64,000 nucleotides of DNA, taken from the NCBI RefSeq assembly GCF_000145255.1, contig NC_014394.1, positions 1,736,001 through 1,800,000 on the forward strand. Reading direction: 5' to 3'. The notes under the pieces were generated by a model. That model was not told the DNA's origin and did not search any database. It worked only from the letters and a program-made list of their open reading frames with translations. Position 1 is the stretch's first letter. Every line of letters begins with the position of its first letter. The DNA is from Gallionella capsiferriformans ES-2 (lineage in GTDB: Bacteria > Pseudomonadota > Gammaproteobacteria > Burkholderiales > Gallionellaceae). This document shows, in pieces, positions 35,525 to 60,131 of this stretch. Made by a program: the position numbers and the translations under genes.

Positions 35525-35601
35525 TGGCGGAGTGGACGGGACTCGAACCCGCGACCCCCGGCGTGACAGGCCGGTATTCTAACCAACTGAACTACCACTC
35601 C
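35525..35601 (-). tRNA. tRNA-Asp (GTC), copy A
   Basis: 77 nt with encoded CCA. Anticodon loop CTGTCAC, anticodon GTC. Identical to the copy at 37703-37779. Confidence 0.97.
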
Positions 35602-35645
35602 AATACGACAGACTACTTACTTCTTGCTACTTTTCAGCAGCTATT

Positions 35646-35721
35646 TGGTGGGTGCTGACGGGTTCGAACCGCCGACAATCGCCTTGTAAGGGCGGTGCTC
35701 TACCAGCTGAGCTAAGCACCC
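35646..35721 (-). tRNA. tRNA-Val (TAC), copy A
   Basis: 76 nt with encoded CCA. Anticodon loop CTTACAA, anticodon TAC. Lies 18 bp after the ppiD stop and 44 bp before tRNA-Asp. Identical to the copy at 37836-37911. Confidence 0.97.
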
Positions 35722-37702: not shown

Positions 37703-37779
37703 TGGCGGAGTGGACGGGACTCGAACCCGCGACCCCCGGCGTGACAGGCCGGTATTCTAACCAACTGAACTACCACTCC
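37703..37779 (-). tRNA. tRNA-Asp (GTC), copy B
   Basis: 77 nt with encoded CCA, identical to copy A. Follows tRNA-Val copy B by 56 bp and precedes the terminator at 37670-37698. Confidence 0.97.
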
Positions 37780-37835
37780 AAAACTTGTACTACAGGTCAC
37801 TTACCACTCGCTACTGATTGTTACTTACTGCAAAT

Positions 37836-37911
37836 TGGTGGGTGCTGACGGGTTCGAACCGCCGACAATCGCCTTGTAAGGGCGGTGCTCTACCAGCTGA
37901 GCTAAGCACCC
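37836..37911 (-). tRNA. tRNA-Val (TAC), copy B
   Basis: 76 nt with encoded CCA, identical to copy A. Begins 12 bp after the hupB stop codon, so it is probably processed from the hupB transcript. Confidence 0.97.
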
Positions 37912-44388: not shown

Positions 44389-46071
44389 TTATTTATCCTG
44401 CACGGGCATCATCTCGGGTTCATACAAACGGACCTGATTACGTCCGCTCTGTTTGGCGTAGTACATCGCAATATCTGCATGCTCGAGTAATTCATGCTCA
44501 CTCGCACCGTGCTCAGGATAAACAGCAACGCCAAGGCTGCTGGAAATTTGCAAACGTGCACCGCTAATCTGAAAAACCTGCTCGAGTGCGATGCGTATTT
44601 TCTCAGCCACGGTCAATGCATCACGCTGATCCTCACTGCTGGTCAACAACACGACAAATTCGTCACCGCCCATTCGTGCCACCGTATCGGCTTCACGCAC
44701 ACAAGACCTGATTCGAGCGGCAACTTCCTGCAGCAGCAAATCTCCCACCGCATGCCCCAAGGTATCGTTAACAGGTTTAAACTGATCCAGATCAAGATAC
44801 ATCAGCGCCAAGTGCATTTTGTCGCGTTTTGCCAAAGACAACGCCTGACGCAGACGGTCGATTAACAACACGCGATTGGGCAAGTCAGTCAGTGCATCGT
44901 GTTGCGCCTGATGACGGATATTTTCCTCATCCGCCTTACGCAGCGTAATATCAGAGAAGGCGGCAACGTAATGCGTCAGTTTTCCATGCGGATCGCGCAC
45001 CTGCTTGATAGTCGACCACTCGACGTAAAGTTCGCCATTTTTCCGGCGATTCCATAGCTCACCGCACCAGCTCCCAGTACAGGTTAATTGCGCCCACAGC
45101 TGCCGGTAAAAATCCGCATCGTGCTTACCGCTCGACAACAGATGAGGATTTTTTCCGATCACCTCTTCAGCCTGATACCCCGTCACCCGGGTGAACGCGG
45201 GATTGACCATGACGATACGATTATCTGCATCGCACACCAGTATGGCCTCATCTACGGTATTAAATACCGTACTGGACAGGTTGAGCATTTCTTCCGCTTG
45301 TTTGAGCATATCGATATCAGTATGCGTCCCGATCATGCGCAACGGCTCGCCTGCCGCATCAAAACTCACCACCCGCCCCCGATCGAGTATCCACTTCCAC
45401 CTGCCATCTTTACACAGCAAGCGATGCTCGTTGAAATAGGCTGGCAACGCACCGGCAAAATAGGCCGCTACATCCGCCTGCACTTTTGGCAAATCTTCCG
45501 GATGAATACGGCGCATCCATTCATCCAGATGATCCGCTATCTCGTCGTCGGCATATCCCAGCATCTCTTTAAGTCGCACAGAAAATTTGACCTCATTGGT
45601 CTGAACGTTCCAGTCCCAGACACCGTCACCGGCCCCTTCCAGCGCGAAACGCCAGCGTTCCTCAGCTTCTATCAGACGCTGTTCAAGTTTTGCGCGACTC
45701 ATTGCATAGCGTATCGAACGGATCAGATCGTCGGCACAAAATTCTCCTTTAACCAGATAGTCCTGCGCGCCTGATTCCAGCGTCTGCAAGGCAAATTCCG
45801 GATCGTTGTGCCCGGTCAGCACGATCAAGGGCAAGGCACCTGCCGCGCGCCGTCCATCCTGCACCGTCTGAAGACCACTCGAATCAGGCAGGGTCAAATC
45901 AAGCAACACCACATCGGGTACATTTTTCTGCAAATACAGCTGTGCCTCGGCCATACTGGTCACCCAGTCTATCGTGAACGTTGGCGCACTCTTCATAGAC
46001 TGACGCAACAAGCTCGCATCGCTCTCTTCATCCTCCACCAGCAAAATCCGGCACGGTGCATTGTTCATCAT
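44389..46071 (-). CDS. response regulator REC-PAS-PAS-GGDEF (diguanylate cyclase)
   Basis: 560 residues. An N-terminal receiver (RILLVEDEESDASLL, phospho-acceptor Asp in VVLLDLTLPDSSG, KGEFCADDL). PAS 1 (~130-260) is of the WRFALEGAGDGVWDWN type with a PAC tail, and PAS 2 (~265-385) has DNRIVMVNPAFTRVTGYQAEEVIGKNP. The GGDEF domain has an intact MGGDEF and an RxxD product-inhibition site (READ) five residues before it. It therefore should make c-di-GMP on phosphorylation. Its start overlaps the preceding kinase gene by 4 bp, which makes that kinase its likely partner. Last gene of the corrinoid signalling run. Confidence 0.95.
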   Translation of the reverse strand: MMNNAPCRILLVEDEESDASLLRQSMKSAPTFTIDWVTSMAEAQLYLQKNVPDVVLLDLTLPDSSGLQTVQDGRRAAGALPLIVLTGHNDPEFALQTLESGAQDYLVKGEFCADDLIRSIRYAMSRAKLEQRLIEAEERWRFALEGAGDGVWDWNVQTNEVKFSVRLKEMLGYADDEIADHLDEWMRRIHPEDLPKVQADVAAYFAGALPAYFNEHRLLCKDGRWKWILDRGRVVSFDAAGEPLRMIGTHTDIDMLKQAEEMLNLSSTVFNTVDEAILVCDADNRIVMVNPAFTRVTGYQAEEVIGKNPHLLSSGKHDADFYRQLWAQLTCTGSWCGELWNRRKNGELYVEWSTIKQVRDPHGKLTHYVAAFSDITLRKADEENIRHQAQHDALTDLPNRVLLIDRLRQALSLAKRDKMHLALMYLDLDQFKPVNDTLGHAVGDLLLQEVAARIRSCVREADTVARMGGDEFVVLLTSSEDQRDALTVAEKIRIALEQVFQISGARLQISSSLGVAVYPEHGASEHELLEHADIAMYYAKQSGRNQVRLYEPEMMPVQDK

Positions 46072-47960
46072 GACGCGACTCCATCGGGTAATTCAAATAC
46101 AACCATCGCACCCCCGGCGGGAAGATTCTCGATCCATATTTTCCCGTGCCGGCTCTCGACAATGCGGCGCGCGATAGACAAACCGATACCCGCGCCCCCA
46201 TCGCTTCCATGACTTAAACGTTCAAAGATTTCAAAGACGCGCTCCAGATATTCGCTTGGAATACCGCACCCGTTATCGCTAATACGAAATCGGCTCAATG
46301 CGCCTTCACGCTCCCCGCTAATGCAAATAACAGGTAACACATCAGGATCTGCCGGCTGACCGTGCTTGAGCGCATTATCGAGTAACACACCGAATAGATC
46401 GTTAAGTCGCGCGCGATCGAGCATCACCTGCGGCAACGTCGTCATTTCCACCTTCATATTAGGTGGCATTTTGTGCAGATGGGAAGCGAGCAATTCATTC
46501 GGATCTTCCAGCTGAATTTCACCGCGCGGCATTCCTGCCGCGAGAAAAAGCTGCACATCGCGTATCAAGGTACGCAAACGAAAAGCATCCCGTTCGATGT
46601 AGTTCAGCGACTCCATAACCTCATGATCCTGACACGTATCTGGCATTTCGTTTACCCGCGTACGCAATTTTTGCGCATAACTGATCAGTCGGCGCGTCGG
46701 CTCCATAAAATGATGGGCGGAAACATCGGAAAATCGCGTCAGGTCGGCATTCGCGCGCTCCAGCTCTGCGCTGCGCAACTTAAGATCAGTGTCTGCATTG
46801 ATCTGCTCCGTGACATCGGATCTCAGATACAAATAGCTGGCCACCTTCCCCTCATTGTTGTAAATAGGCGAAACATTGATCTGCTCCCAGTACAATCTAC
46901 CGCTCTTATGTCGATTGCGGATGACGCCGCTCCAGAGCTTTCCTGCCATCAATTGGCTCTGCACATCGCCATATTCAGCCTCTGTCAATTCCGAAGAAAT
47001 AATTTCACGCGGGGTACGATGCTCGATATAAAAATCTGCAAACTGATATCCACTGATACGACTGCACGCTGCATTCATATATTCGAGCACGCCGTTTGTA
47101 TCGGTGATCACAACACCGGTCGGATTTTGCTCAATCGCCTGCGCCAGACGATTGATTTCCATCTCGAACAAGTGCCGGTCCGTAATATCTGTCGCAATAC
47201 CATCCCAAACAACTAACCCTTCGTTATTCTTGCGCGGATGAGACTTAAACTGCAGCCAGCGCCACTCGCCATCAGGTCGCTGCATTTGCAATTCCATCGA
47301 AAAATTGTTCAAACACTGCAAACTTACCGCCTGTGCCGCAGCGTAAGTCTCGCGCTGTGCAGGCGCAATCTGTGCCAACAGAACCATTGCATCCTGCAAT
47401 ACCTGATCAACCTTAACGCCATTGGTGCGCTCAACCCCTGAACTCAGAAACAGGAATACGGGAAACCCCTCATTTAGAGTGTACTGATACAAAAAGCTGT
47501 CGGGCAAACTATTCCCCAGATTCAGCAACTGTATTTCCCTGTCCTTGATGTCGTCGGTGAGTTTTTTAAGCGCTTCACTGGCTGCTCGCAACTGAGCTCT
47601 GCTTGGCAGAGTCATGACGAGAGGCTTTAATTTCCACAACAAAATGAGCGCCAGCATAATGACAAATGCCGTCAGCATGTCCATCAACACTTCGAGGTAG
47701 TACACCGGGTACCACAACTCAATGACATGCAACAGATGCGTGAACCCGCACGTCACAATAAAACCGGCAAACAGCCAATGCAGATATTTAAAATCGATAT
47801 CGGTGCGATCGCGTATAAATTTTAGAACCATCAGAGGAGCGGCAAAACAAGACAGTGCAATCAGAAGATTACCAATGATCAGCACCGTCGCCAATTCAGG
47901 CTGCCACGATATCCAAGAACCGTGTGCAATTGAAACCGCTGGCGTTAAATTGTCGATCAT
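46068..47960 (-). CDS. PAS histidine kinase with ethylene-receptor-like membrane domain
   Basis: 630 residues. Three helices at about 23-48, 60-80 and 88-110 align without gaps to the ethylene-binding domain of plant ETR1: CGFTH at 71-75 matches the copper ligands Cys65/His69, and Pro42 matches Pro36. Asp25, Tyr32 and Ile35 of ETR1 are Asn31, Cys38 and Ala41 here. Two PAS domains follow (second: VLEYMNAACSRISGYQFADF, with PAC). The kinase core has the phospho-His in VSAHHFMEPTRRL, N box VLLDNALKHG, and G boxes SDNGCGIPSE and GAGIGLSIARRI. It overlaps the DUF1638 and regulator genes by 4 bp each. Ethylene or copper sensing is possible but unproven. Confidence 0.9.
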   Translation of the reverse strand: MIDNLTPAVSIAHGSWISWQPELATVLIIGNLLIALSCFAAPLMVLKFIRDRTDIDFKYLHWLFAGFIVTCGFTHLLHVIELWYPVYYLEVLMDMLTAFVIMLALILLWKLKPLVMTLPSRAQLRAASEALKKLTDDIKDREIQLLNLGNSLPDSFLYQYTLNEGFPVFLFLSSGVERTNGVKVDQVLQDAMVLLAQIAPAQRETYAAAQAVSLQCLNNFSMELQMQRPDGEWRWLQFKSHPRKNNEGLVVWDGIATDITDRHLFEMEINRLAQAIEQNPTGVVITDTNGVLEYMNAACSRISGYQFADFYIEHRTPREIISSELTEAEYGDVQSQLMAGKLWSGVIRNRHKSGRLYWEQINVSPIYNNEGKVASYLYLRSDVTEQINADTDLKLRSAELERANADLTRFSDVSAHHFMEPTRRLISYAQKLRTRVNEMPDTCQDHEVMESLNYIERDAFRLRTLIRDVQLFLAAGMPRGEIQLEDPNELLASHLHKMPPNMKVEMTTLPQVMLDRARLNDLFGVLLDNALKHGQPADPDVLPVICISGEREGALSRFRISDNGCGIPSEYLERVFEIFERLSHGSDGGAGIGLSIARRIVESRHGKIWIENLPAGGAMVVFELPDGVAS

Positions 47961-48583
47961 GCTGTCATCCCTTGATTTTTACTATCCTCAATCAGTTGCC
48001 GATGCGACATCGCTTCGCGCAGCACCCTATCAAGTTGCTGCAGGTCTACATCCATCCAGCGCAGCGGCAAGCCGATTTTTTCGCCAATCGCGATTGCTTC
48101 GGCTTCAAAATCACCTGAACAGGGAGTGCGCAGACACAGCAGCGATTTATTGGACAACTGAAATATCTCGCGTGTCACATCGGGGTTATCCCCGAACGTT
48201 TTGCCTATCGCCTCATCCCAGCGCAAGGCCCAGTCTTCGAGCAGAAAAAAAGCGCCGTCGCTCAGTTCTGCCATAAATCGCTCCGGCCCCAGTAACATCT
48301 CCACACAGTTTTGCCCTGCAGTTCTAAAAATATGCGCCGTTTCCAGTATTTTTTCCATACGGGGATGGCAACATCCGTAAAAAACAATCACATCGCGGCC
48401 TCTGTTGCGCAAAATACCGCTTTGCAAAGCATGTGCTAATTTTTCGAAATTGACATGCAGCGACGAATCCAGAAAATCCGTGTCCAGCTGCCAGCCATTT
48501 TTTTTAATCAGCCACCTCACTTCAGCCTGCAAAATGCCACAGCCCAGCAGCATGCAATCGGGCGTAGCCTTATCCGACATCAA
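47957..48583 (-). CDS. DUF1638 protein
   Basis: 208 residues, soluble. DUF1638 features: MLLGCGILQAEVRWLI at the N terminus, LDSSLHVNFEKL, VIVFYGCCHPRMEKIL, and NCVEMLLGPERF. Several Cys/His positions (CG, CCH, NC) suggest metal or cofactor binding. To my knowledge DUF1638 genes often lie beside corrinoid methyltransferase genes, as here; the function is unknown. It overlaps the corrinoid fusion gene and the kinase gene by 4 bp each, so its dosage is tightly tied to both. Confidence 0.78.
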   Translation of the reverse strand: MMSDKATPDCMLLGCGILQAEVRWLIKKNGWQLDTDFLDSSLHVNFEKLAHALQSGILRNRGRDVIVFYGCCHPRMEKILETAHIFRTAGQNCVEMLLGPERFMAELSDGAFFLLEDWALRWDEAIGKTFGDNPDVTREIFQLSNKSLLCLRTPCSGDFEAEAIAIGEKIGLPLRWMDVDLQQLDRVLREAMSHRQLIEDSKNQGMTA

Positions 48584-50286
48584 ATCCGCCCGTATTCCTT
48601 GGCAGCCGCGATCATGGCTTTAATATTTTCCTCAGGGATACCATACGGCATCACCACCGTGCCGAAGAATAATTTTTTCCCCTCCGCCAATCCGCCCTGC
48701 ACAATGCGCTTTACCTCGCTTCGCACCTCGTCCGGCGTCCAGTCCAGCAACTTGATATCATTGATCACCCCAGCGCAAAGTGCCCGGTCACCGATCAGAC
48801 GCATCGAATCGGTAATATTATCCAGAGGACCGGGATAATAAGTCGTGATACCGACTTCGCGAATGACTTCATCCACCACGGAATTTAACCGCGCGCCCCC
48901 CACGTAATACACCACACCATCCAAGCCGCCGGGTTCCAGATCACGCTTGATCCATTTGAGCGAGAGTTCCTTGAACAGCTTCATCGGAATAATGTCGGTC
49001 GAACCATAAGGGTCGGCATACACCAACACATCGGCACCCGCCCGGCGATAGGCCTCGATTTCCTTACGGAAAAAATCGGAACATTTTTCCAGCAGCATGT
49101 CGCGCACGGCAGGGTCGCCTATCATCAGCAACTCCATCCATTTCTCCATGCTCATCAAAATGGCGGGAAGCGACATCGAAGCGGTCAGATAGGCGCAGAT
49201 CGGCACCTTACCGCCGACTTCGCGCTTTAAAATTTCCAGACACTTAGCCGTCTCGGCAAATGCAGGGTGTGTACTGATGTCGTCAGGCACCTGCAAATTG
49301 GCGATATCCTCGTACGACTGGATGATGTAATCCTCAACATTAGGCGGGCCATCGGTTGCGTAGCGAATTTTTTTACAACCGAAAAGTTCGGCTTCCCGCC
49401 CCACGTAAAACAGACTCCAGACGTTATCGTGTCCGAATTTTTCCAGCATTTTCAACTGCGCTTCGGCGACATGTTCCCCTTTGGAGAAATATTCCTCGAT
49501 GGACAGGCCAAGTTCACGTGCGCCCTGATCGAGCAGGTTGCAGAACACCGGAATATGGTCGAGTATTTTGCCGTTCGCAGCGGCAAGCAATCTGTCCATA
49601 CTCGTAATCGCCTTCACCTCCGCAATGCAATCCATAATCACTTTCAAGGCCGATACGCCATTTTCAGCCCAAGCGTCCGCCTGCACCAGTTTATACAGGT
49701 CAGCATCGTAGCGGAACGGCGCACCTCCCACCACCAGCTTGATTTTGCGCTCCAGCCCGCGCGCCTTGAGTATCTTGCGCACTTTGAGCGCGCCGTTCTC
49801 GCCGCGCGCCGTATGCACCATCATCGCCGATACCCCGATGACCTGTGCGCCACGCGCCACGGCCTCATCCACGAAACGCTCTGCTGGCACATTGACGCCA
49901 AGATCGGTCACCTCGATCATCTGCGCTTTTAAACACCCGATCACAATGCGTTTACCCAGCGTATGCAAATCTCCCGCTGCCGTACCGATCACGACACGAC
50001 CGGTAATCTCCGGGGGAACCTTGAACAACAGCAGCATTTTTTCGGTCACATCGGCCGCAATCTGCGATGTCATAAAATGCTGTGCCAGATTGGTATCAAA
50101 TCCTTCGCTCAGCGCCTTAACCATCAAGTCCATGCCCGGAATCACAACCTTAAACACAATATCTTCAGGAGTCAGCCCCTGTTCGATGGCGTCAGCCACC
50201 ACTTGCAGCGCTCGCGTTCGATCGGTGTCCATCACCGCCTCGTTGTAGCTTTTGATCACCTCATCTAACATCACGCGCCCCTTCAT
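48580..50286 (-). CDS. corrinoid protein fused to UroD/MtaA-like methyltransferase domain
   Basis: 568 residues; ATG at codon 6 is an alternative start. Residues ~1-90 form the helical cap of methyltransferase corrinoid proteins. The B12-binding domain follows with DLHTLG at 106-111 (His108 as lower cobalt ligand), GVNVPAERFV and VVGGAPF. Residues ~235-565 resemble the uroporphyrinogen decarboxylase/MtaA-MtbA fold. The zinc-binding HxC of thiol methylases appears as YYV (in VVYYVGGARLNS), and the C-terminal Cys is also missing, so coenzyme M or another zinc-activated thiol is an unlikely acceptor. Substrate unknown. Gene order puts it between the RACo-like activator and DUF1638. Confidence 0.88.
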   Translation of the reverse strand: MKGRVMLDEVIKSYNEAVMDTDRTRALQVVADAIEQGLTPEDIVFKVVIPGMDLMVKALSEGFDTNLAQHFMTSQIAADVTEKMLLLFKVPPEITGRVVIGTAAGDLHTLGKRIVIGCLKAQMIEVTDLGVNVPAERFVDEAVARGAQVIGVSAMMVHTARGENGALKVRKILKARGLERKIKLVVGGAPFRYDADLYKLVQADAWAENGVSALKVIMDCIAEVKAITSMDRLLAAANGKILDHIPVFCNLLDQGARELGLSIEEYFSKGEHVAEAQLKMLEKFGHDNVWSLFYVGREAELFGCKKIRYATDGPPNVEDYIIQSYEDIANLQVPDDISTHPAFAETAKCLEILKREVGGKVPICAYLTASMSLPAILMSMEKWMELLMIGDPAVRDMLLEKCSDFFRKEIEAYRRAGADVLVYADPYGSTDIIPMKLFKELSLKWIKRDLEPGGLDGVVYYVGGARLNSVVDEVIREVGITTYYPGPLDNITDSMRLIGDRALCAGVINDIKLLDWTPDEVRSEVKRIVQGGLAEGKKLFFGTVVMPYGIPEENIKAMIAAAKEYGRI

Positions 50287-50295
50287 GATCCGAAC

Positions 50296-51855
50296 TTACG
50301 GTATCGCTTGCAGATAAAGATTTTCCACAAATAGTGACTCGAACCCGACATCCTCGGCAAGATTATAAATCCGGCTCACCGCCAGAACAGCTGCCAGCTC
50401 AGCCTCGGCCAGATCCGAGATCAGTAACGCCTCGCAACCGCCCAGCGCCGTATTGCCCTCCAGATGCACCATAGCTGTTTGCGGCAACAAACCGATTTGC
50501 TGTGCATTTTCGACCGTAAGCAACTGACCGAACGCACCGCAAGCGTAAACCTGTGTCAGATCGCCAGTTTCAAGACCGGCCTGCTGACATAACCATTGCA
50601 CCCCGGCGCCGATCGCAGCTTTAGCACGCTGCAACACATCGATGTCGCCGCGCTTTAATACAACGCCTTCTGACAACACCCATCCCCCGGAGGTCTTGTC
50701 GGTAAAACGTCCAACTTTATCAAGCTGCCCCGTACGCAGCAGATAGGCTGCAGCATCCACCAGTGCGGACCCGCACAATCCACGCGGCGCCAGGTCTCCC
50801 AGCACGTGCAGCTTAATTTCGCCCCCCGTCTGATCGATACGATAGATCGCACCGTCTTCAGCCGGCATTCCGCAACTGATGCCACCGCCTTCAAAGGCCG
50901 GGCCTCCAGCGGTCGCCGTGACATGCAGCGTCTGACCATCCCACAGTGCCATCTCAGAATTGGTGCCAAAATCGATCAACAACGCGCCTGCCGGCTGCCG
51001 TATCAAACCGGTAGCGATTACGCCTGCGAGCAAATCAGAACCGACAAAACCACCTAAGGGTGTCACCAATCGAATGTTTGCCGCCTCGCTCACCCCCCAG
51101 GCTGCACGCAAGAAAGTTGTTTGCTCTGGTTGACACGCGATACGGCGGGTCCAGTTTTCAGGATCCAAGAGCATCCGGTAATTGAGCCCTGCCAGCAGGC
51201 TGAGCATCGCCGTATTGCCCACGATCTGAACCTCCCCGACGGCTGACAACGCAATCGAGCTTTGAGATGACATATTAGCCAGTGCATCTGCAATCCGATC
51301 CCGTATCAGTTTGCCCAGCGCACGCGCGCACGCTTCAGCGCGATCGGCCTCCATCAACCGTGTCAACACATCCGCACCATAGCTTCCCTGCGGATTGAGT
51401 CCTGAACAGGCATTGATGCGTACTCCGGCAACCAGATCCCAAAGCGCAAGGCGCACCTGCGTGGTCCCGACATCAATCGCAACCCCGTATCGCACGGTGT
51501 GCGCACGTGGAGCAAAAGACCATGCGCTACGGCTACACTCATCTTCACGCAACGCCCGCCAGCTCATCTGCGCCAGAGGTTGCATCACCTCGACATGTAA
51601 ATCCATCAATGCATTCAGCTGGCACGCAAGCCGTATTCCTGCCGCTAACTGCGCTCCCGACAGCCTTGCCCGTTCTGAAAATGTATAGGGGATTGCCCCA
51701 CTTTCAGCCACGCGGACCTGACATTGCCCGCAGCGTGCCTGTCCGCCGCAAGACGAGCGCACCGCACATCCACCTGCGATCAGCACTTCGCGTAAATTAG
51801 CGCCAGGCTGCAGGGACTGCAGTATTTCGCCTTGCGAGTTTTGCACCACGATCAT
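50296..51855 (-). CDS. RACo-like reductive activator of corrinoid protein (2Fe-2S + ASKHA)
   Basis: 519 residues. An N-terminal plant-type 2Fe-2S ferredoxin domain has SSCGGQARCGQCQV and a later RLACQ (four Cys). After a linker, the ASKHA ATPase fold (DUF4445 type) begins with VAIDVGTTQVRLALWDL (phosphate 1), then VGNTAMLSLLAG, LLIDFGTNSEMALWDG (phosphate 2) and YACGAFGQLL. Such proteins use ATP to reduce inactive Co(II) corrinoid to Co(I). The cognate corrinoid protein is encoded 9 bp downstream. The receiver-domain gene upstream ends 4 bp before it, so signalling and corrinoid genes share a transcript. Confidence 0.9.
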   Translation of the reverse strand: MIVVQNSQGEILQSLQPGANLREVLIAGGCAVRSSCGGQARCGQCQVRVAESGAIPYTFSERARLSGAQLAAGIRLACQLNALMDLHVEVMQPLAQMSWRALREDECSRSAWSFAPRAHTVRYGVAIDVGTTQVRLALWDLVAGVRINACSGLNPQGSYGADVLTRLMEADRAEACARALGKLIRDRIADALANMSSQSSIALSAVGEVQIVGNTAMLSLLAGLNYRMLLDPENWTRRIACQPEQTTFLRAAWGVSEAANIRLVTPLGGFVGSDLLAGVIATGLIRQPAGALLIDFGTNSEMALWDGQTLHVTATAGGPAFEGGGISCGMPAEDGAIYRIDQTGGEIKLHVLGDLAPRGLCGSALVDAAAYLLRTGQLDKVGRFTDKTSGGWVLSEGVVLKRGDIDVLQRAKAAIGAGVQWLCQQAGLETGDLTQVYACGAFGQLLTVENAQQIGLLPQTAMVHLEGNTALGGCEALLISDLAEAELAAVLAVSRIYNLAEDVGFESLFVENLYLQAIP

Positions 51856-51859
51856 AAGG

Positions 51860-52309
51860 TTAGCTTTTTCTGGGTAACCGGGTCAAAGTAAACCAATAAT
51901 TGTCTAGTTGCCTGATCGCATCAATGAACTGATTCATGTCAACCGGCTTAGTGATATAACCTGCCGCCCCCAGTTTGTATGACGCGACCACATCACGCTC
52001 TACATCAGAAGTCGTTAGTACGACCACCGGAATCACGGACAAATCGGGATCTTTTTTGACTTCGGCGAGAAACTCTCGTCCATTCATGCGGGGCATGTTC
52101 AAATCCAATAAGATCAGATCAGGTTGAGGCGCATTCTTGTAACGCTCTCCCTGCTTGCGCAAAAACGCTAAGGCATCCACCCCGTCGAGTTCGTGATGTA
52201 AATTACAAAAAACCTTATTGCTTTTGAGTGCAGAACGCACCAGATTCGCATCAGCCGGCTCATCTTCCACCAGCAAGACATCAAAGGCTTGGGCATGGTT
52301 CATCAACAT
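51860..52309 (-). CDS. single-domain response regulator (Rcp1/CheY-like)
   Basis: 149 residues, receiver domain only. VLLVEDEPADANLV at the N terminus, phospho-acceptor Asp in DLILLDLNMPRMNG, switch Thr in VVVLTTSDVERD, and Lys in YITKPVDMNQF. The layout with an extra loop (RKQGERYKNAPQP) matches Rcp1-type regulators that partner PAS or phytochrome kinases. The large PAS kinase lies 105 bp upstream. An ATG two codons in (MNHAQ) is an equally good start. Confidence 0.93.
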   Translation of the reverse strand: MLMNHAQAFDVLLVEDEPADANLVRSALKSNKVFCNLHHELDGVDALAFLRKQGERYKNAPQPDLILLDLNMPRMNGREFLAEVKKDPDLSVIPVVVLTTSDVERDVVASYKLGAAGYITKPVDMNQFIDAIRQLDNYWFTLTRLPRKS

Positions 52310-52414
52310 TCATCTCTCCTCGTTGCAGCACATAGGCTGACATGACGGTGTACAGTTCCGGTTTAATAAATACTAGCACGCAAAACAACACCCTATACAA
52401 GGTTAAAGCGGAAC

Positions 52415-55243
52415 TCAATGATCGTGAGTAATAACGGGCAATTCAAAAATAAAGGTACTACCCGAGCCGACTCCGGCAGACTCGACCCAGATACGACCAT
52501 CGTGATGTTCAACAATACGCCTGCATAACGCCAATCCCATGCCAGTCCCTTCAAAAATGGTTCGCGACTGCAAACGACTGAAGAACTGAAACAGACGGTC
52601 GGCTTGCTTGGGATCAATGCCCACGCCATGATCTTTAACGCTAACGCGCCACATTGCTTTTGCCACAACCGATTTGATTTCAATCAGGGGCGCTTGCCCG
52701 GATTCGTGAAATTTGATGGCGTTGCCAATCAAATTTTGAAATAATCGCGTCAGTTCGTCACGACTGGCGAAGAGCTGCGGCCATACCCCTTGGAAGGTAA
52801 CCTGCGCTGCGGATTCCTGGATCATCGGTTGTAAAAAACTCAGCGCCTCATCCAAAACCGCGCGGCTCTCTATCCCTTGTTTTTCGCCGGTCTTTCTGCC
52901 GACACGAGAGTAGTCGAGCAGCGAGACAATCATCGAATCCATGCGTTTTGCACCATCGAGTGCAAAATTCATATTCAACAAATCGTCCTCACTCAGCTGC
53001 TCTTTGAGGCTATGTTGCAACAATTGCAGATGACCGCTTACCGCGCGCAACGGCTGACGCATATCGTGCGAAACGCTATAGGCGAAGCGTTCCAGATCCG
53101 CGTTGGAGCGTTTGAGCGCATCTTCGATCCGCTGCCGCTCGGTGATATCGCGTGTGACCGCCAACTGTACCCGCTTGCCGTACGCTTCCATCGGCACGGC
53201 GTGTGTCTCCAGCATGCGTCGGCCGCCTTTTAAGCCCAACACTTCAAATTTCAATTGCATCGACTCGCCGGCAATCACCCGCTTATGCATTTGCAAAAAT
53301 GCCTCGCGATACTCGGGGGCAATCACACCGGTGACAGGGCGACCGGCAACCTGCGCCAGTGAATCGGCTTCAATCATCTCCAAACCGGCCGGATTCATCT
53401 GGATCAGTATGCCCTGATCGTCAACGATCTTAATGCATGCGGGTTCATTGTTAATGATCGCGCGCAAATGCGCTTCACTTTCCAGCAGCTGTGCTTCTGC
53501 CTGCTTGCGCTGCGTAATATCGACCACTGAACTGATGAAATACAGCGCAAGTCCCTCCGTATCACGCAGCAGCGCGACCGAAAGATTAACCCAAACAATC
53601 CCCCCGTCCTTGCGAATGTAGCGTTTTTCCATTTCATAATGATCGTCCGCACCACTGAGCAAACGCTGCACCTGCGCCATATCTGAGGCCAGATCTTCCG
53701 GATAGGTAATTTGCCCGAAAGAAAAATGCTGCGACAACACCTCAGATTGCGTATAACCGATAATATTGCAAAATACCCGGTTGATTTCCAAAAACACACC
53801 GTCCGTGGATACTTGCGCAATGCCCACGGCGGCATGATCAAAGGTCGCGCGATAACGCGCCTCGCTCAGACGCAATGAAATTTCCGCACGTTTAAAATCA
53901 CTGATGTCGCGACTGATGCCAAATATGCCCGTCACCGTCTTGCCATCCTCGGCAAACACCGGCCATTTATTGGTGCTGACCCAACCTTGCCGCCCTGCTG
54001 AATCATAATAAGGATCGATCCGATTAAGAATAGGCGACCCGCTATTGAACAGAGGCAGCTCCTCCTCATAATAAATTTTCGCCACATCTTCAGGAAAAAT
54101 TTCCAGATCATGCTTGCCTATCATCTCGCGCCAGTTCTGATGCCCGGTGATATTGGCCAGCGTCTGGCTGCAAAAACGAATCCGGCTATCCCGGTCCTTA
54201 AAATAGATAAAGTCAGTCGTGCTCTCCAGCAACGTCATGAAATCCCGATTTAATATCTGCAAGGCATCCACCGCCTCCCGGCGCCGGCGCTCGCCTCTGT
54301 AGAGCATACCGAGCAACAAAACGGAAATAACAAGAAATACCGCCGACAGCCCGACCAGCTTTAAAGAGGAATTGCGCCATTGCGCCAGATAATCATCAGC
54401 GGAAAAACCAACGGTAATATAAAGCGGATAACCGGACACTTTACGATAGGAGTAGGTTCGTTCGACCTGATCCAAAATGCCCGCCACCCGATAAGTGCCC
54501 TTGGTAAGCCCCGCCTCGAGAGAGGATTTCAACTGCGGGGTCATGGTATTTTTTCCTATCGTCGCCTGAGCAGATGACGGTTCAGGATAGCGCACGATGA
54601 TGTTCATGTCGCTATCGCGGAGATTTACGATGCCGCCCTTTCCCACCTCGAGATGCGAAAATGAAGTCGAAATTTTTTCCAGTGAAACTAACGCATACAC
54701 AATGCCCGCGAACGTGCCATCCGGGTGATTGAGTCGGCGCGCAATCGGCAGCACCCATTTTTTGTCGATGCGGGCAAATACAGGTTCAGATATGAACAGG
54801 CGATCGTCGTTTTTCGACTTGAAATAAATAAAATGTTTTCGATCGTTAATATCGACATTTGAACCGGGTAAAACGCCCGTACCATAGCTGATTATACCTG
54901 CCGAATTTGCAATGCGCAGATTGTCGATTTCAGGTAAACGCACCTGCCGTTTTTGCAAAAAAACATTAAGCTCCGCCGGATTGATTTTTCCGCTTTTATA
55001 CTGTCGCTGCACCTCATCGATCGCCGACAGCATGGAGGCATCCACTCGCGCAAGCATGCCGGAAAAACTCTCTTCCAGAATATGCGCCAGACTCTGCGTC
55101 ATTTTCTCGGCATTGTGCTGATACTGATGATAACTTTGGTACAGTATCAAACCGACCAGAAAAAACATCGCCAGATTCACTAGCACTGCGCCCGCAACCA
55201 TTTGCAAGAAAAATCGTGAAGGCGCAACGGTATCTTTTAGCAT
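52415..55243 (-). CDS. Cache-PAS histidine kinase
   Basis: 942 residues from the ATG at 55243 (MLKDTVAPSR); the frame runs 21 codons further into the previous gene, which I consider unlikely. Two membrane helices (about 15-37 and 295-315 from this start) bracket a periplasmic double-Cache domain (NVDINDRKHFIYFKS, LPIARRLNHPDGTFAGIVYALV). Three PAS domains follow, one with EINRVFCNIIGYTQSEV. The kinase core has H box YSVSHDMRQPLRA, N box NLIGNAIKFH, and G boxes KDHGVGIDP and GTGMGLALCRRI. It probably signals to the receiver protein encoded next and/or the REC-GGDEF-EAL protein before it. The ligand is unknown. Confidence 0.93.
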   Translation of the reverse strand: MLKDTVAPSRFFLQMVAGAVLVNLAMFFLVGLILYQSYHQYQHNAEKMTQSLAHILEESFSGMLARVDASMLSAIDEVQRQYKSGKINPAELNVFLQKRQVRLPEIDNLRIANSAGIISYGTGVLPGSNVDINDRKHFIYFKSKNDDRLFISEPVFARIDKKWVLPIARRLNHPDGTFAGIVYALVSLEKISTSFSHLEVGKGGIVNLRDSDMNIIVRYPEPSSAQATIGKNTMTPQLKSSLEAGLTKGTYRVAGILDQVERTYSYRKVSGYPLYITVGFSADDYLAQWRNSSLKLVGLSAVFLVISVLLLGMLYRGERRRREAVDALQILNRDFMTLLESTTDFIYFKDRDSRIRFCSQTLANITGHQNWREMIGKHDLEIFPEDVAKIYYEEELPLFNSGSPILNRIDPYYDSAGRQGWVSTNKWPVFAEDGKTVTGIFGISRDISDFKRAEISLRLSEARYRATFDHAAVGIAQVSTDGVFLEINRVFCNIIGYTQSEVLSQHFSFGQITYPEDLASDMAQVQRLLSGADDHYEMEKRYIRKDGGIVWVNLSVALLRDTEGLALYFISSVVDITQRKQAEAQLLESEAHLRAIINNEPACIKIVDDQGILIQMNPAGLEMIEADSLAQVAGRPVTGVIAPEYREAFLQMHKRVIAGESMQLKFEVLGLKGGRRMLETHAVPMEAYGKRVQLAVTRDITERQRIEDALKRSNADLERFAYSVSHDMRQPLRAVSGHLQLLQHSLKEQLSEDDLLNMNFALDGAKRMDSMIVSLLDYSRVGRKTGEKQGIESRAVLDEALSFLQPMIQESAAQVTFQGVWPQLFASRDELTRLFQNLIGNAIKFHESGQAPLIEIKSVVAKAMWRVSVKDHGVGIDPKQADRLFQFFSRLQSRTIFEGTGMGLALCRRIVEHHDGRIWVESAGVGSGSTFIFELPVITHDH

Positions 55244-55263
55244 GGAAACGGCCTTTAATCTCG

Positions 55264-57762
55264 TTACAAATCTGTCGCGCCCGACTGCGACAGACGCGCC
55301 CGCCACACTGCGGCGGGTTCAGGACGACCATACAAATAGCCTTGATGAATAATCTGTCCGCGCGCATTCAAAAATTCGCTCTGACCCAGCGTTTCCACCC
55401 CTTCGGCCACCACCTGAAAATGCAGGTGTTTTGCAATAGACAGGATCGTCTCAACGAGCGCGGCATCATTAGGATCACTGGTGCAATCCTGAATAAAACT
55501 CTTGTCTATCTTCAGCTCATGGATAGGCAGTCGCTTGATATAGGCCAGACTCGAGTAGCCGGTGCCAAAATCATCGATGGAAAAATGGATCCCCAACGTC
55601 GATAAAAGGGTCATTTTGGCGATCACATCGCCAATATCACCGATCACGATCCCTTCGGTCAGCTCAAGTACCAAGCGGCTGGGATCCGCACCGCTCGCCT
55701 CTAATTGATGCTGGATCTCGCTGACGAAATCTGCCTGCTGAAAATGACGCGGACTGATATTGACCGACAGCCTGATTGAACTCCCCTCAGCATCCAGCTC
55801 GGCCAGCAATCGACAAACAGCCGATAACATCCAGCGATCAATCGATATGATCAGATCAGATGACTCCGCTAACGGAATAAACAGACCGGGAAGCGTGAGA
55901 CCCCGCGTGGGATGCTGCCAGCGCACCAGCGCTTCTGCACCGACCTGCACGCCCGACGAATTCACCTGCGGTTGCAGATACAGTCGCAGCTGATCCTCTA
56001 AAATTGCCAGACGCAACTCTGCCTCCAGCTGAAAACGCGCCCTGACGGTCTCTCCCATCAATGACTCAAAGAACATGGTGCGCGAGCGCCCCTCTGCCTT
56101 TGCATTCGTCATCGCCATATCCGCCTGACGCAACACATCAATCGCGGTTTCCTGAGGCGTATCGGGCAGCATGGCAATACCGATACTGGCATCGACATGA
56201 ATAAACTCGCCATCCATTTCAATCGCGCAGCGTAATGCAGCGCGCAATTTTTCTGCCACCGCCAATGCCTCGCGCCCCGCTTTTTCACGGGGAATATGCA
56301 ATCTCGGCAGCAACACGGCAAACTCGTCCGAATCTAAGCGCGCCAGCAGATCATCGCGATGCAAAGTCTGCCCTAGGCGATCCGCCACAGAGCGCAGCAA
56401 GGCATCTCCGATCGCTAATCCGCGCGCTTCGTTGATTTCCTTGAAGCGATCCAGATCAATCAACAACACCGCAGCAAAATAATCATCGCGCTTAGAACTC
56501 ACTAGCGCCTGCTCTACCTGACGCAAAAACAACGCGCGGTTAGCCAGCCCCGTCAGAGGATCACGCCAGGATAGCTCTTCGACCTCTGCCTGCGCCTTTT
56601 TAATTTCGCTCATATCGGAAAATACCGCGACATAACTGCTGGTATTCCCCTTCGAATCTTTAATGGTCGTGACCGACTCCCACTGTGCATACAGCTCGCC
56701 ATTTTTACGGCGATTCCAGATTTCACCGCACCACTGACCATGCTTGATCAATTCCGACCAGAAGTCACGGTAAAAAGCTTGTTTGTGCAGCCCTGATTTA
56801 TACATACGGGGATTTTTACCGACCACCTCAGCTTCGCTGTATCCGGTAATGCGGCAAAAAGCTGGATTGACCGCGATGATGGCGCCGCTGACATCGGTGA
56901 CAACAATCGCCTCCCCCGTGGTCTCAAAGACCCTTGATGCCAACTCAAGACGCGCTTCAATTTTTTTATTTTCGGTAATATCGGTAATAAAACCGTGCCA
57001 CAGTATGCTGCCATCTACCTGTTTTTCGGGTCTGGCGTCACCCCTGCGCCAGCAAACACCCTGCTCAGGTAACAAGATGCGATACTCATGATGCCAAGGC
57101 GTCAAGGTACGGGCGGACTCTTGTATCGATGCGGCAATACCGGCTGTATCATCCGGATGCTGAAAGGCAAACACCGCGGTAGCATCGTCACGAACCGCAT
57201 CAGCCTCTACGCCATACAGCTCCAACATCGCACGGCTGGCAAACGGAAAACTCATATGGCCGTCCACATCGAGACGAAACTGAAAAATCAATCCGGGTAC
57301 ATGATCTGAGAGTTTGTGCAATAAATCGTGGCTTTTCTGCAAATTAACCGACAGTAGTTTTCTCTCGATTGCGTAACGAATCGAGCGCACTAACGCATCG
57401 GTATCAAATTTCCCCTTGACCAGATAATCCTGAGCGCCCGCTTCGAGTGTCTGCAGCGCAAAACTGGTATCGTCGTGTCCCGTGAGCACGACCAACGGCA
57501 TCTCGGATGCGACCTCGCGTATGCGATGCACGGTTTCAATTCCATTGGAATCAGGTAAGGATAAATCCAGCAACAACACGTCAAAGCGCTGTTGTTTGAG
57601 TTCCAGCAAACTGAGGGCCAGTGTAGTGACCCAAACGACGCTGAAAACAGGTGAACGACTGGCGCGCAGTGCTTGCTGCGCCAAATGCGCATCCGCCGGC
57701 TCGTCTTCGACCAGTAATACAGAATATTGGGTGTTCAACTTGAACACCCGTACGCGCAGCAA
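55264..57762 (-). CDS. response regulator REC-PAS-PAS-GGDEF-EAL
   Basis: Up to 832 residues from a TTG at 57762; a GTG or TTG six to nine codons later is possible, and all fall in a 21-bp palindrome. The receiver has VLLVEDEPADAHLA and LLLDLSLPDSNG. Two PAS domains follow, the second with IAVNPAFCRITGYSEAEVVGKNP. In the GGDEF domain the signature is DSDEF (ARLDSDEFAVLL), so cyclase activity is doubtful. The EAL domain looks complete (GAEALVRWQHP, SVNISPRHF, LELTEG, DDFGTGYSSL, KIDKSFI, VAEGVET), so the protein probably degrades c-di-GMP. First gene of the long leftward run. Confidence 0.93.
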   Translation of the reverse strand: MLRVRVFKLNTQYSVLLVEDEPADAHLAQQALRASRSPVFSVVWVTTLALSLLELKQQRFDVLLLDLSLPDSNGIETVHRIREVASEMPLVVLTGHDDTSFALQTLEAGAQDYLVKGKFDTDALVRSIRYAIERKLLSVNLQKSHDLLHKLSDHVPGLIFQFRLDVDGHMSFPFASRAMLELYGVEADAVRDDATAVFAFQHPDDTAGIAASIQESARTLTPWHHEYRILLPEQGVCWRRGDARPEKQVDGSILWHGFITDITENKKIEARLELASRVFETTGEAIVVTDVSGAIIAVNPAFCRITGYSEAEVVGKNPRMYKSGLHKQAFYRDFWSELIKHGQWCGEIWNRRKNGELYAQWESVTTIKDSKGNTSSYVAVFSDMSEIKKAQAEVEELSWRDPLTGLANRALFLRQVEQALVSSKRDDYFAAVLLIDLDRFKEINEARGLAIGDALLRSVADRLGQTLHRDDLLARLDSDEFAVLLPRLHIPREKAGREALAVAEKLRAALRCAIEMDGEFIHVDASIGIAMLPDTPQETAIDVLRQADMAMTNAKAEGRSRTMFFESLMGETVRARFQLEAELRLAILEDQLRLYLQPQVNSSGVQVGAEALVRWQHPTRGLTLPGLFIPLAESSDLIISIDRWMLSAVCRLLAELDAEGSSIRLSVNISPRHFQQADFVSEIQHQLEASGADPSRLVLELTEGIVIGDIGDVIAKMTLLSTLGIHFSIDDFGTGYSSLAYIKRLPIHELKIDKSFIQDCTSDPNDAALVETILSIAKHLHFQVVAEGVETLGQSEFLNARGQIIHQGYLYGRPEPAAVWRARLSQSGATDL
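57729..57749. promoter_or_regulatory. perfect 21-bp palindrome at the start of the REC-GGDEF-EAL gene
   Basis: Arms GGGTGTTCAA and TTGAACACCC around a central C. It covers codons ~5-11 of the annotated frame, so it could be an operator, or an mRNA hairpin that hides a start site. No repeat of it is seen elsewhere in the window. Confidence 0.5.
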
Positions 57763-58128: not shown

Positions 58129-58365
58129 ATGATCCTGCGCGGCACACATCGCCCTGACCTTCTCAAGCCCCCTCTCCCCGACTTGCTGAACACCGCTGCA
58201 ATGCGTTTTGCCGCACAACGCTTATCAAATCTGCGCGAAAACACATATTTTGCCGGCGTGACGGTGCACGGTATTTACTGCGTGCGATGGATAGGCTCAC
58301 TGACCGTGTGCGATTTAACAGGCACGATATTTAAAATTAACCAACCTATTAAATTCGAATGTTAA
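58129..58365 (+). CDS. small hypothetical protein upstream of SapC-FGE gene
   Basis: 78 residues from the ATG at 58129 (an ATG five codons earlier is possible). No family recognised. There are three Cys residues in the second half (YCVRW, VCDL and the terminal C). Its stop overlaps the start of the SapC-FGE gene by 7 bp, the kind of coupling seen in real operons, but the ribosome-binding site is weak. Could be a genuine small protein or a spurious frame. Confidence 0.45.
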   Translation: MILRGTHRPDLLKPPLPDLLNTAAMRFAAQRLSNLRENTYFAGVTVHGIYCVRWIGSLTVCDLTGTIFKINQPIKFEC

Positions 58366-60131
58366 ATTTTAATGGAACTCTCGTTGAGCTCAATTCCGGC
58401 TCGCATCAAAATCTGAGAATTGAAGAGGCAAAGCCGGATTACGGGTTCGCTCGCAATTGCACTTCGATACCCGTCACGTTTGATGAGTTGACCAGCGCAG
58501 CCCAAGAGCTTCCCATCTCATTCATGTACGACGAGCATGAACAATTGTGCCCTGTCGTACTGTTCGGTCTTCCCGCCACAGGCAATCTGCTGGTCAGTAC
58601 CACGGGCCTATGGCGTGCCGCCTATATCCCGCAAGCCTTGCAACGCTACCCGTTTATACCGAACCTAGATCAACCCGCAAAGATTTATCTGGACGAGACC
58701 TCGCGTGCGCTGAATTTTACAACGGGTGAACTGCTCGTTGATGCAGAGGGGGTATTACAACCGCGCGCGAATGATGAGTTGCAATTTTCCCAGCATTACG
58801 CTGAGCGGCTCGCACAAACACGCCTGATGGCGGAGCAACTCAAGCAGCTGGACTTATTGTCGCCGCTGAAATGCGACGGCAACAACATCGATTTTCCCGC
58901 GCTCTACTCAATCGATGAAGCGAAACTCAAAAAACTGAGTGATGCCGCCCTGCCCGGGCTGTTCCACAGCGGTGCGTTACAATTAGCTTACTTGCAACTT
59001 GCCTCACAGGATCACCTGCCCGGTCTGATCCACACCGCGAACAGGCAATTGGCATTAAACGCGGACAAGGCCACTAACAAACCTGAGCCCCTCCCGCGCC
59101 GCGCAGAACAAATAATCCAGCGACCGGCACTCAAAGCCAGAATCGTTGACACGCCGCCGATTATTTCAGTCGATGATCAACAGGAAATACTCCGCAAACA
59201 GGAAATTGCCAAAAAGCTCAGCGATGAGGCAAATCGTCTGGCGCAAGTGCATAAGCAGCGTTACACGCAAAGTTTAACCGAAACACCCATCGTGCCGGAG
59301 ATACCCGAACCTCTCGATACCCTAATCAATACGAAAAAGCCCCTCCAATGGCGATGGGCACTGGGTGCATCGGCCGGCGCAGTTATTTTCACCGTCTATT
59401 TTTTGACAGGTTCAAAAAATACAACCGCCCCTTCGACACCGAGCCCTACCCCCCCCACCGCTTCTTCGCCCGCGCTGACCGATCCCTTTAGTACTGCCAT
59501 GATACGTATAGCACCGGGGACATTCGAGATGGGTTCGACGGACGGTGATAAGGATGAAAAACCGATCCAGCAAAACCACATTAGCCCGGCCTTTGAGTTA
59601 GCCAAGACGGAGGTCACACAAGGCCAATGGGTGAGCGTGATGGGGCATCTGCCTGAAAAGCTGGCATTTAAACAGTGCGGCGACAACTGCCCGGTCGAGA
59701 ATATCAGTTGGAACGATGCTCATGAATTTATTAATGAACTCAATAGGATAACGGGAAAGTCGTATCGTCTGCCCAGCGAAGCGGAATGGGAGTACGCCTG
59801 CCGCGCGGGCAAAAATCAACGCTATTGCGGCGGCAACAATCCAGATGAATTAGCCTGGTACAACACCCAAACGCCCCACCCGGTCGCATTGAAACAGGCG
59901 AATGCCTGGGGATTGTATGACATGAGCGGCAATGTTTGGGAGTGGGTTGACGACTGCTACCACACCCGCGCGACACAAGGTGATCGCAAAGAGACATGCG
60001 ATACGCGCGTGTTACGCGGCGGTTCCTGGTCCAATGATGAAGACACGCCTCGGGCAGCCAACCGCTACAAACGTTCAGCGAAGGAGCGCGTCAACAATAA
60101 CGGCTTACGTCTGGCAAGAACGCTGCCCTAA
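58359..60131 (+). CDS. SapC-like domain fused to formylglycine-generating-enzyme-like domain
   Basis: 590 residues. Residues ~1-225 match the SapC family (LNSGSHQNLRI, YGFARN, SIPVTFDELTSAAQELPISF, VLFGLPATGNLLV, GLWRAAYIPQALQRYPF, IDEAKLKKL). A charged helical linker, one membrane helix (331-350) and a Pro/Thr-rich spacer follow. From ~380 an FGE/SUMF1-type domain begins (MIRIAPGTFEMGSTDGDKDEKP, KTEVTQGQWVSVMG, PVENISWNDAHEFINELN, YRLPSEAEWEYACRAG, GLYDMSGNVWEWVDDCY, LRGGSW). Topology would put SapC inside and FGE in the periplasm. The fusion is unusual; FGE-like domains often only bind ligands, so enzymatic activity is open. Confidence 0.88.
   Translation: MLNFNGTLVELNSGSHQNLRIEEAKPDYGFARNCTSIPVTFDELTSAAQELPISFMYDEHEQLCPVVLFGLPATGNLLVSTTGLWRAAYIPQALQRYPFIPNLDQPAKIYLDETSRALNFTTGELLVDAEGVLQPRANDELQFSQHYAERLAQTRLMAEQLKQLDLLSPLKCDGNNIDFPALYSIDEAKLKKLSDAALPGLFHSGALQLAYLQLASQDHLPGLIHTANRQLALNADKATNKPEPLPRRAEQIIQRPALKARIVDTPPIISVDDQQEILRKQEIAKKLSDEANRLAQVHKQRYTQSLTETPIVPEIPEPLDTLINTKKPLQWRWALGASAGAVIFTVYFLTGSKNTTAPSTPSPTPPTASSPALTDPFSTAMIRIAPGTFEMGSTDGDKDEKPIQQNHISPAFELAKTEVTQGQWVSVMGHLPEKLAFKQCGDNCPVENISWNDAHEFINELNRITGKSYRLPSEAEWEYACRAGKNQRYCGGNNPDELAWYNTQTPHPVALKQANAWGLYDMSGNVWEWVDDCYHTRATQGDRKETCDTRVLRGGSWSNDEDTPRAANRYKRSAKERVNNNGLRLARTLP

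Follow-up and report, generated by a model that had tools for sequence, protein, structure and literature searches.

The subject of this analysis is a leftward run of eight genes at positions 44389 to 57762 of a window from Gallionella capsiferriformans ES-2 (the whole stretch of 64,000 nucleotides that was analysed, NC_014394.1, positions 1,736,001 to 1,800,000; coordinates below count from its first letter). At the heart of the run, a corrinoid protein fused to a methyltransferase of the UroD superfamily is followed directly by a DUF1638 protein and a histidine kinase, and this corrinoid methyltransferase-kinase system is real and wider than one genome. By virtue of its tight packing with kinases and its recurrence in distant bacteria, the enzyme is likely to be used for sensing rather than feeding. 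The operon would then be a sensor in which a corrinoid methyltransferase serves as the input of two-component signalling, a reading to which we give a probability of roughly 0.55. The components are listed below, where PASX, like GAFX further on, is a name given in this analysis to an input domain, the profile of each having been refined on its own matches.

55264..57762, reverse strand: REC-PAS-GGDEF-EAL protein (Pfam)
52415..55306, reverse strand: histidine kinase with Cache-like, three PAS, HisKA and HATPase domains (Pfam)
51860..52309, reverse strand: stand-alone, CheY-like receiver (open reading frame and Pfam)
50296..51855, reverse strand: RACo-like corrinoid reactivator with N-terminal Fer2, RACo middle and ASKHA C-terminal domains (Pfam)
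48580..50286, reverse strand: fusion of an N-terminal corrinoid protein (B12-binding) and a C-terminal UroD-type methyltransferase (Pfam)
49954..49971, reverse strand: cobalt-ligand motif DLHTLG (DxHxxG) in the sequence of the fusion, the ligand being His108
48592..49605, reverse strand: URO-D domain of the fusion (Pfam)
47957..48583, reverse strand: DUF1638 protein (PF07796, Pfam)
46068..47960, reverse strand: histidine kinase with ETR1_N membrane domain, PASX input domain, second PAS and HATPase
47610..47894, reverse strand: ETR1_N domain with CGFTH (Pfam, 82 bits against a cut-off of 27)
47139..47543, reverse strand: PASX domain (residues 140-274 of the kinase, 234.8 bits)
44389..46071, reverse strand: REC-PAS-PAS-GGDEF protein, a predicted diguanylate cyclase (Pfam; motifs by eye)

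The eight-gene run with these domains, and the close joining of its last five genes, had been proposed in the original prediction, and both descriptions hold: all eight open reading frames were confirmed at their coordinates, and the Pfam domains agree with the earlier account. The coordinates place a 9-bp gap between the RACo-like gene and the fusion, and 4-bp overlaps at the fusion/DUF1638, DUF1638/kinase and kinase/REC-PAS-GGDEF junctions; the receiver and the RACo-like gene are separated by 4 bp. In the upstream kinase, dCache_1 scores 34.3 bits, under the Pfam cut-off of 45. Promoter-like sites (18 against 15.0 expected by shuffling, standard deviation 4.7) and terminator-like sites (21 against 15.9, standard deviation 4.0) are near expectation, and an Rfam scan of positions 40000-62000 returned, above the gathering score, one tRNA only and no cobalamin riboswitch or other element.

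Evidence for a system comes from gene order in other genomes. When species genomes were scanned with the fusion, 21 loci were returned. Of these, 19 match at 58-98% identity, in records that bear the names Gallionellaceae, Methylobacter, Comamonadaceae, Geobacter, Desulfuromonadales, Verrucomicrobia and Marinilabiliales, with others besides; L020 and L022 were left out as distant UroD proteins (25% and 21% identity), and L014 was dropped for lying on the same contig as L099 (L and G numbers denote loci and genomes). Protein searches add Nitrospirae, Mariprofundus, Magnetococcus, Thermodesulfovibrio and Azotosporobacter. The distribution is patchy. Whole-genome searches at an E value of at most 1e-60 placed the UroD domain in 4 of 369 genomes of its own class and 7 of 150 of its own family, both counts taking in the present genome. 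It was likewise present in 32 of 277 genomes of the class of Geobacter genome G527, and in 38 of 201 of the order of Methylobacter genome G522. Viral contigs gave no pattern match to close relatives of the fusion.

With home-built profiles, 59 stretches were mapped and the UroD gene was called in 57; L112 and L131 fell outside this number by gene calling and were recovered from stop-to-stop frames with UroD, DUF1638 and histidine kinase. In 51 of the 57 loci, at least one of the three genes that come next on the same strand encodes a histidine kinase. These loci are not independent, since they include close relatives (for instance L010/L013 and L127/L128) and two loci each in G758 and G763. 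By comparison, 11 of 253 genes have such a kinase in control stretches, which were 20 in number, taken at round coordinates in 12 genomes rather than drawn at random. DUF1638 follows UroD in 49 of the 57 loci, and six of the eight missing cases were found on a second search. Among the six loci with no kinase call, the contig ends there in L005, L011 and L015, and the cut gene of L015 carries GAFX. Because the same gene order is found in distant phyla against a low control background, the arrangement is more than chance. The co-occurrence of the corrinoid/UroD fusion, DUF1638 and a kinase, for which the original prediction had proposed a search as a check, is found, although the full gene set it envisaged as a system is reduced to a core of corrinoid-binding domain, UroD, DUF1638 and kinase; RACo, cyclic di-GMP (c-di-GMP) and the ethylene-receptor domain are not general parts.

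The gene after DUF1638 usually carries GAFX or PASX, either at its start or behind ETR1_N. PASX is typical of the kinases in Gallionellaceae- and Methylobacter-type loci, where 11 loci score 226-241 bits and the next match only 52. GAFX resembles a GAF domain, is about 176 residues long and had 74 matches of at least 165 bits among module loci and retrieved proteins; the control stretches had no match. In L094, DUF1638 is followed immediately by a gene for a PAS-GGDEF protein with GAFX, and then by a gene for a kinase with GAFX. Across whole genomes, GAFX and UroD travel together: in the 277 genomes of the Geobacter class, 31 have both, one UroD only, five GAFX only and 240 neither, while the corresponding counts in the 201 genomes of the Methylobacter order are 36, two, none and 163. 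Most GAFX matches (73 of 81) lie within 5 kb downstream of a UroD gene on the same strand. Several exceptions have particulars of their own: in G773 the contig ends after UroD, in G522 PASX is used instead, in G863 the kinase is upstream, and in G594 the match stands at a contig start.

Gene fusions tie the parts together further. DUF1638, GAFX and kinase form one chain in proteins from the protein search and in L018, L099 and L100, and DUF1638 is fused to a kinase in two lineages. The second, divergent lineage occurs in the Geobacter group, where B12-binding domain, UroD (about 200 bits against the home-built profile) and a DUF1638-kinase fusion are present in eight of eight loci (L195-L202), the set L195-L204 having been chosen for long or fused-looking DUF1638 frames. 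In L204 the order is B12, UroD, DUF1638 frame and kinase, and in L203 UroD is itself fused to DUF1638 with a kinase next, the only locus with that fusion. Fusions of UroD to DUF1638 and of DUF1638 to kinase argue that UroD, DUF1638 and kinase are one functional unit. Taken together, the conserved gene order, the fusions and the dedicated input domains bear out the coupling of a corrinoid methyl-transfer module to kinases that had been read from the Gallionella operon. Divergent DUF1638 was also seen in frames of about 860-1200 residues in seven genomes of the Geobacter class (G692, G700, G701, G702, G704, G705 and G709); the four of these that were examined have the DUF1638-kinase fusion (L195, L196, L200 and L202).

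At the level of single residues, the fusion has the features of a corrinoid protein of the MtaC/MtbC-like kind, with DxHxxG and a B12-binding fold, and the D, H and G of the motif are retained in 55 of 55 family members. Its C-terminal part has the URO-D fold and belongs to the UroD superfamily. More specific families are not reached: the fusion scores 90.2 bits against a cut-off of 215.3 for the NCBIfam corrinoid protein model TIGR02370, and 105.9 against 235.4 for the MtaA/CmuA methyltransferase model TIGR01463. The zinc ligands of MtaA are His, Cys and Cys. With 4ay7 as the aligned reference (about 22% identity), the position of the His is Tyr or Phe, and that of the last Cys is Thr, Asn or Ser, in all 57 UroD domains. 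Since two of the three ligand positions are changed throughout, an MtaA-type zinc thiol methyltransferase was rejected. The RACo-like protein, the sole PF14574 match in the genome, has all three of its domains above the Pfam cut-offs and aligns to 3zyy over residues 122-501, with RamA (TIGR04270, 109.2 against 500) and AcsV (NF040756, 254 against 800) models not reached.

DUF1638 is identified by 105.9 bits against a PF07796 cut-off of 27, and exactly one copy is present in the genome, in the operon. Cys15, Cys72 and Cys93 are invariant among 41 aligned sequences. When a structural model of the protein was compared with known structures, it appeared to have only generic Rossmann or periplasmic-binding-like matches and no clear relative.

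Taken as a sensor, the operon could work as follows. The UroD domain, acting as a substrate:corrinoid methyltransferase (MTI), would transfer the methyl group of some compound to cobalt, and methyl-cobalt would be the signal. DUF1638, docked on the corrinoid domain, may relay the state of the cobalt to the GAFX or PASX domain of the kinase, while RACo, where present, would reset Co(II) to Co(I). In this genome, the kinases would phosphorylate neighbouring receivers and so shift c-di-GMP. The predicted outputs are the proteins at the two ends of the run. The one at 44389-46071 keeps its GGDEF motif intact, with RxxD preceding it, as judged by eye (PF00990, 169 bits), and is a predicted diguanylate cyclase; in that at 55264-57762 the GGDEF motif is degenerate (DSDEF) and the EAL motif kept, again by eye (PF00563, 221 bits), which predicts a c-di-GMP phosphodiesterase under receiver control. 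A tentative extension, to which we give a little under even odds, is that corrinoid methyltransferases act as chemosensors in many phyla, loading the methyl group of an environmental compound on cobalt. DUF1638 would relay the resulting methyl-cobalt signal either to kinases or straight to a diguanylate cyclase, and the whole would be a distinct class of two-component input with at least two divergent lineages. If true, cobalt-methyl chemistry would be used to sense and not to eat, and bacteria would have a little-suspected route to detect methylated compounds. Methanotrophs, iron oxidisers and metal reducers would gain a sensor for methylated compounds or low redox potential, and DUF1638, still labelled an unknown family, would gain a role as a signal relay.

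Several observations weigh against the sensor reading. Fusion and synteny are evidence of association and not of the direction in which information flows. Within the 277 genomes of the Geobacter class, DUF1638 is present in 73 and this UroD in 32; being the commoner of the two, it is not specific to signalling, and the idea of a signalling-only protein was rejected on these counts. L016 and L115 have no DUF1638 match on either search. In L012 signalling genes are found on the opposite strand only, in L113 no kinase follows DUF1638 and one stands upstream of RACo, and in L130 no kinase follows and none is in view. The input domain is likewise not exclusive to the module, given that in G665-G668 (L183-L186), all of which carry the divergent-lineage module, GAFX is away from this UroD and forms a PAS-SpoIIE fusion in the two proteins scanned, and that the 18-kb stretch L190 contains a lone GAFX kinase but neither B12 nor UroD nor DUF1638. 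In L021, only a 28-bit GAFX fragment follows DUF1638, a full copy lying 14 kb away in the genome. Of 25 genomes with the module, some of which may be incomplete, 9 gave no RACo match; RACo was therefore rejected as a universal part, and a RACo-driven reset cannot be assumed everywhere. Lastly, a Cys adjoins the middle zinc-ligand position in 36 of the 57 UroD domains, so that a metal site of another type may be present there.

Among other explanations, the one that survives best, unlikely as it is, makes the system a redox sensor: the corrinoid would switch between Co(II) and Co(I) as the redox state of the cell changes, DUF1638 and RACo would form an electron path, and the kinase would read reduction in place of methylation. 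Many carriers are, by name, bacteria of redox gradients (Gallionellaceae, Geobacter, Mariprofundus, Methylobacter), the lack of a RACo match in nine genomes counts on the same side, and so do the three invariant cysteines of DUF1638. Three conserved cysteines could bind a metal cluster. A highly conserved methyltransferase domain would, however, be needless in such a device; 55 positions of UroD are conserved in at least 97% of its 57 members, which suggests a specific ligand rather than pure redox sensing.

An ordinary demethylating enzyme, feeding methyl groups into metabolism while the kinases control or accompany the pathway without reading the corrinoid, is rather improbable. A RACo-type activator, a corrinoid protein and a UroD-type methyltransferase do form a known metabolic set, as CdmBC and its activating enzyme illustrate (PMC13222342), and the MetH of this genome could in principle accept the methyl group. 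However, the operon holds no MTII-type acceptor gene, and in the genome PF00809, the methyl-tetrahydrofolate-type acceptor family, matches only FolP-like and MetH-like frames, in agreement with the original prediction that no acceptor pathway gene lies nearby. The dedicated input domain and the fusions of DUF1638 to kinases speak against this explanation as well, and so does the fact that the neighbours are signalling genes even in distant phyla.

Least probable by far is an ethylene or copper sensor, in which sensing proper would fall to the ETR1_N kinase, with the corrinoid enzyme producing or clearing the ligand of that kinase. The domain scores well above its cut-off and its CGFTH keeps the copper-ligand Cys and His of ethylene receptors, but it is found in only seven mapped stretches, outside the shared part of the module, and in L006 the kinase carries this PASX but no ETR1_N. 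The position presumed to match Asp25 of AtETR1 is Asn in six of six sequences viewed, leaving the set of seven ethylene-binding residues incomplete. Asp25 is required for ethylene binding according to PMC11819568. Ethylene sensing as a core function was rejected on these grounds, and the CGFTH-type kinase that had been expected in the conserved set is not general. The same applies to c-di-GMP as a general partner, since its enzymes lie within five genes of the module in only 20 of the 57 loci; as a defining output it was rejected, and ETR1_N and c-di-GMP output are local additions to the module.

Around the module, neighbour clusters present in at least four loci include no consistent enzyme pointing to a substrate, and only a few recurrent PhnD-like proteins and methyl-accepting chemotaxis proteins. 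PhnD-like periplasmic binding proteins are found in L006 (4269-5174), L019 (6179-7069), L021 (12480-13328) and L095 (12410-13264) by PF12974, and in L103 and L116 by similarity cluster; they are a possible second sensory input. Methyl-accepting chemotaxis proteins occur in L093 (5967-7664), L096 (5319-7013) and L108 (968-2608). A nitrogenase component 1-type gene lies three to seven genes from the module in L093 (17074-18942, Pfam) and, by similarity cluster, in L094, L095, L097, L106 and L109. In L104 the UroD/B12/DUF1638 module occurs twice, once on each strand, one copy having diverged further than the other, and in three of the four genomes G665-G668 the GAFX gene adjoins a class I tRNA synthetase gene. 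In the Gallionella window, the divergent gene upstream of the run (58359-60131) resembles, by eye, a formylglycine-generating-enzyme-type domain in its C-terminal part, and a tRNA-Asp/tRNA-Val pair occurs twice, about 2 kb apart (35525-35721 and 37703-37911).

In the open-licence literature, judged by title and start of abstract, no paper was recognised as describing a corrinoid UroD-DUF1638-kinase system. A methylation or corrinoid event serves as a signal in Ada, a methyl-transfer sensor, and in CarH, a B12 photoreceptor; to our knowledge, neither involves a two-component kinase or a substrate:corrinoid methyltransferase. Compared with the methylcobamide:coenzyme M methyltransferases MtaA and MtbA, the zinc-ligand positions are changed here and the NCBIfam MtaA/CmuA cut-off is not reached. 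The bacterial ethylene receptors AzoEtr1 and SynEtr1 also carry an ETR1_N membrane domain on a histidine kinase, whereas here the Asp25-equivalent is Asn and most mapped loci have no ETR1_N. The UroD-superfamily corrinoid systems (Cdm, the O-demethylases MtvB/OdmB/VdmB/MtoB, and CmuA) combine a corrinoid protein, a UroD-type methyltransferase and an activating enzyme as in this operon, which differs from them in having no MTII acceptor gene and in placing DUF1638 and kinases after the fusion. Zinc-free methyltransferases of the UroD type exist, CdmB being one (PMC13222342). DUF1638 is also known from the split methionine synthase and betaine demethylation systems of Phaeobacter and Ruegeria, where a RamA-like protein and DUF1638 stand beside a corrinoid protein as they do here (PMC5764234, PMC12478193). 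Those systems serve methionine synthesis or demethylation, whereas in the present module the partner to which DUF1638 is joined or fused is a kinase.

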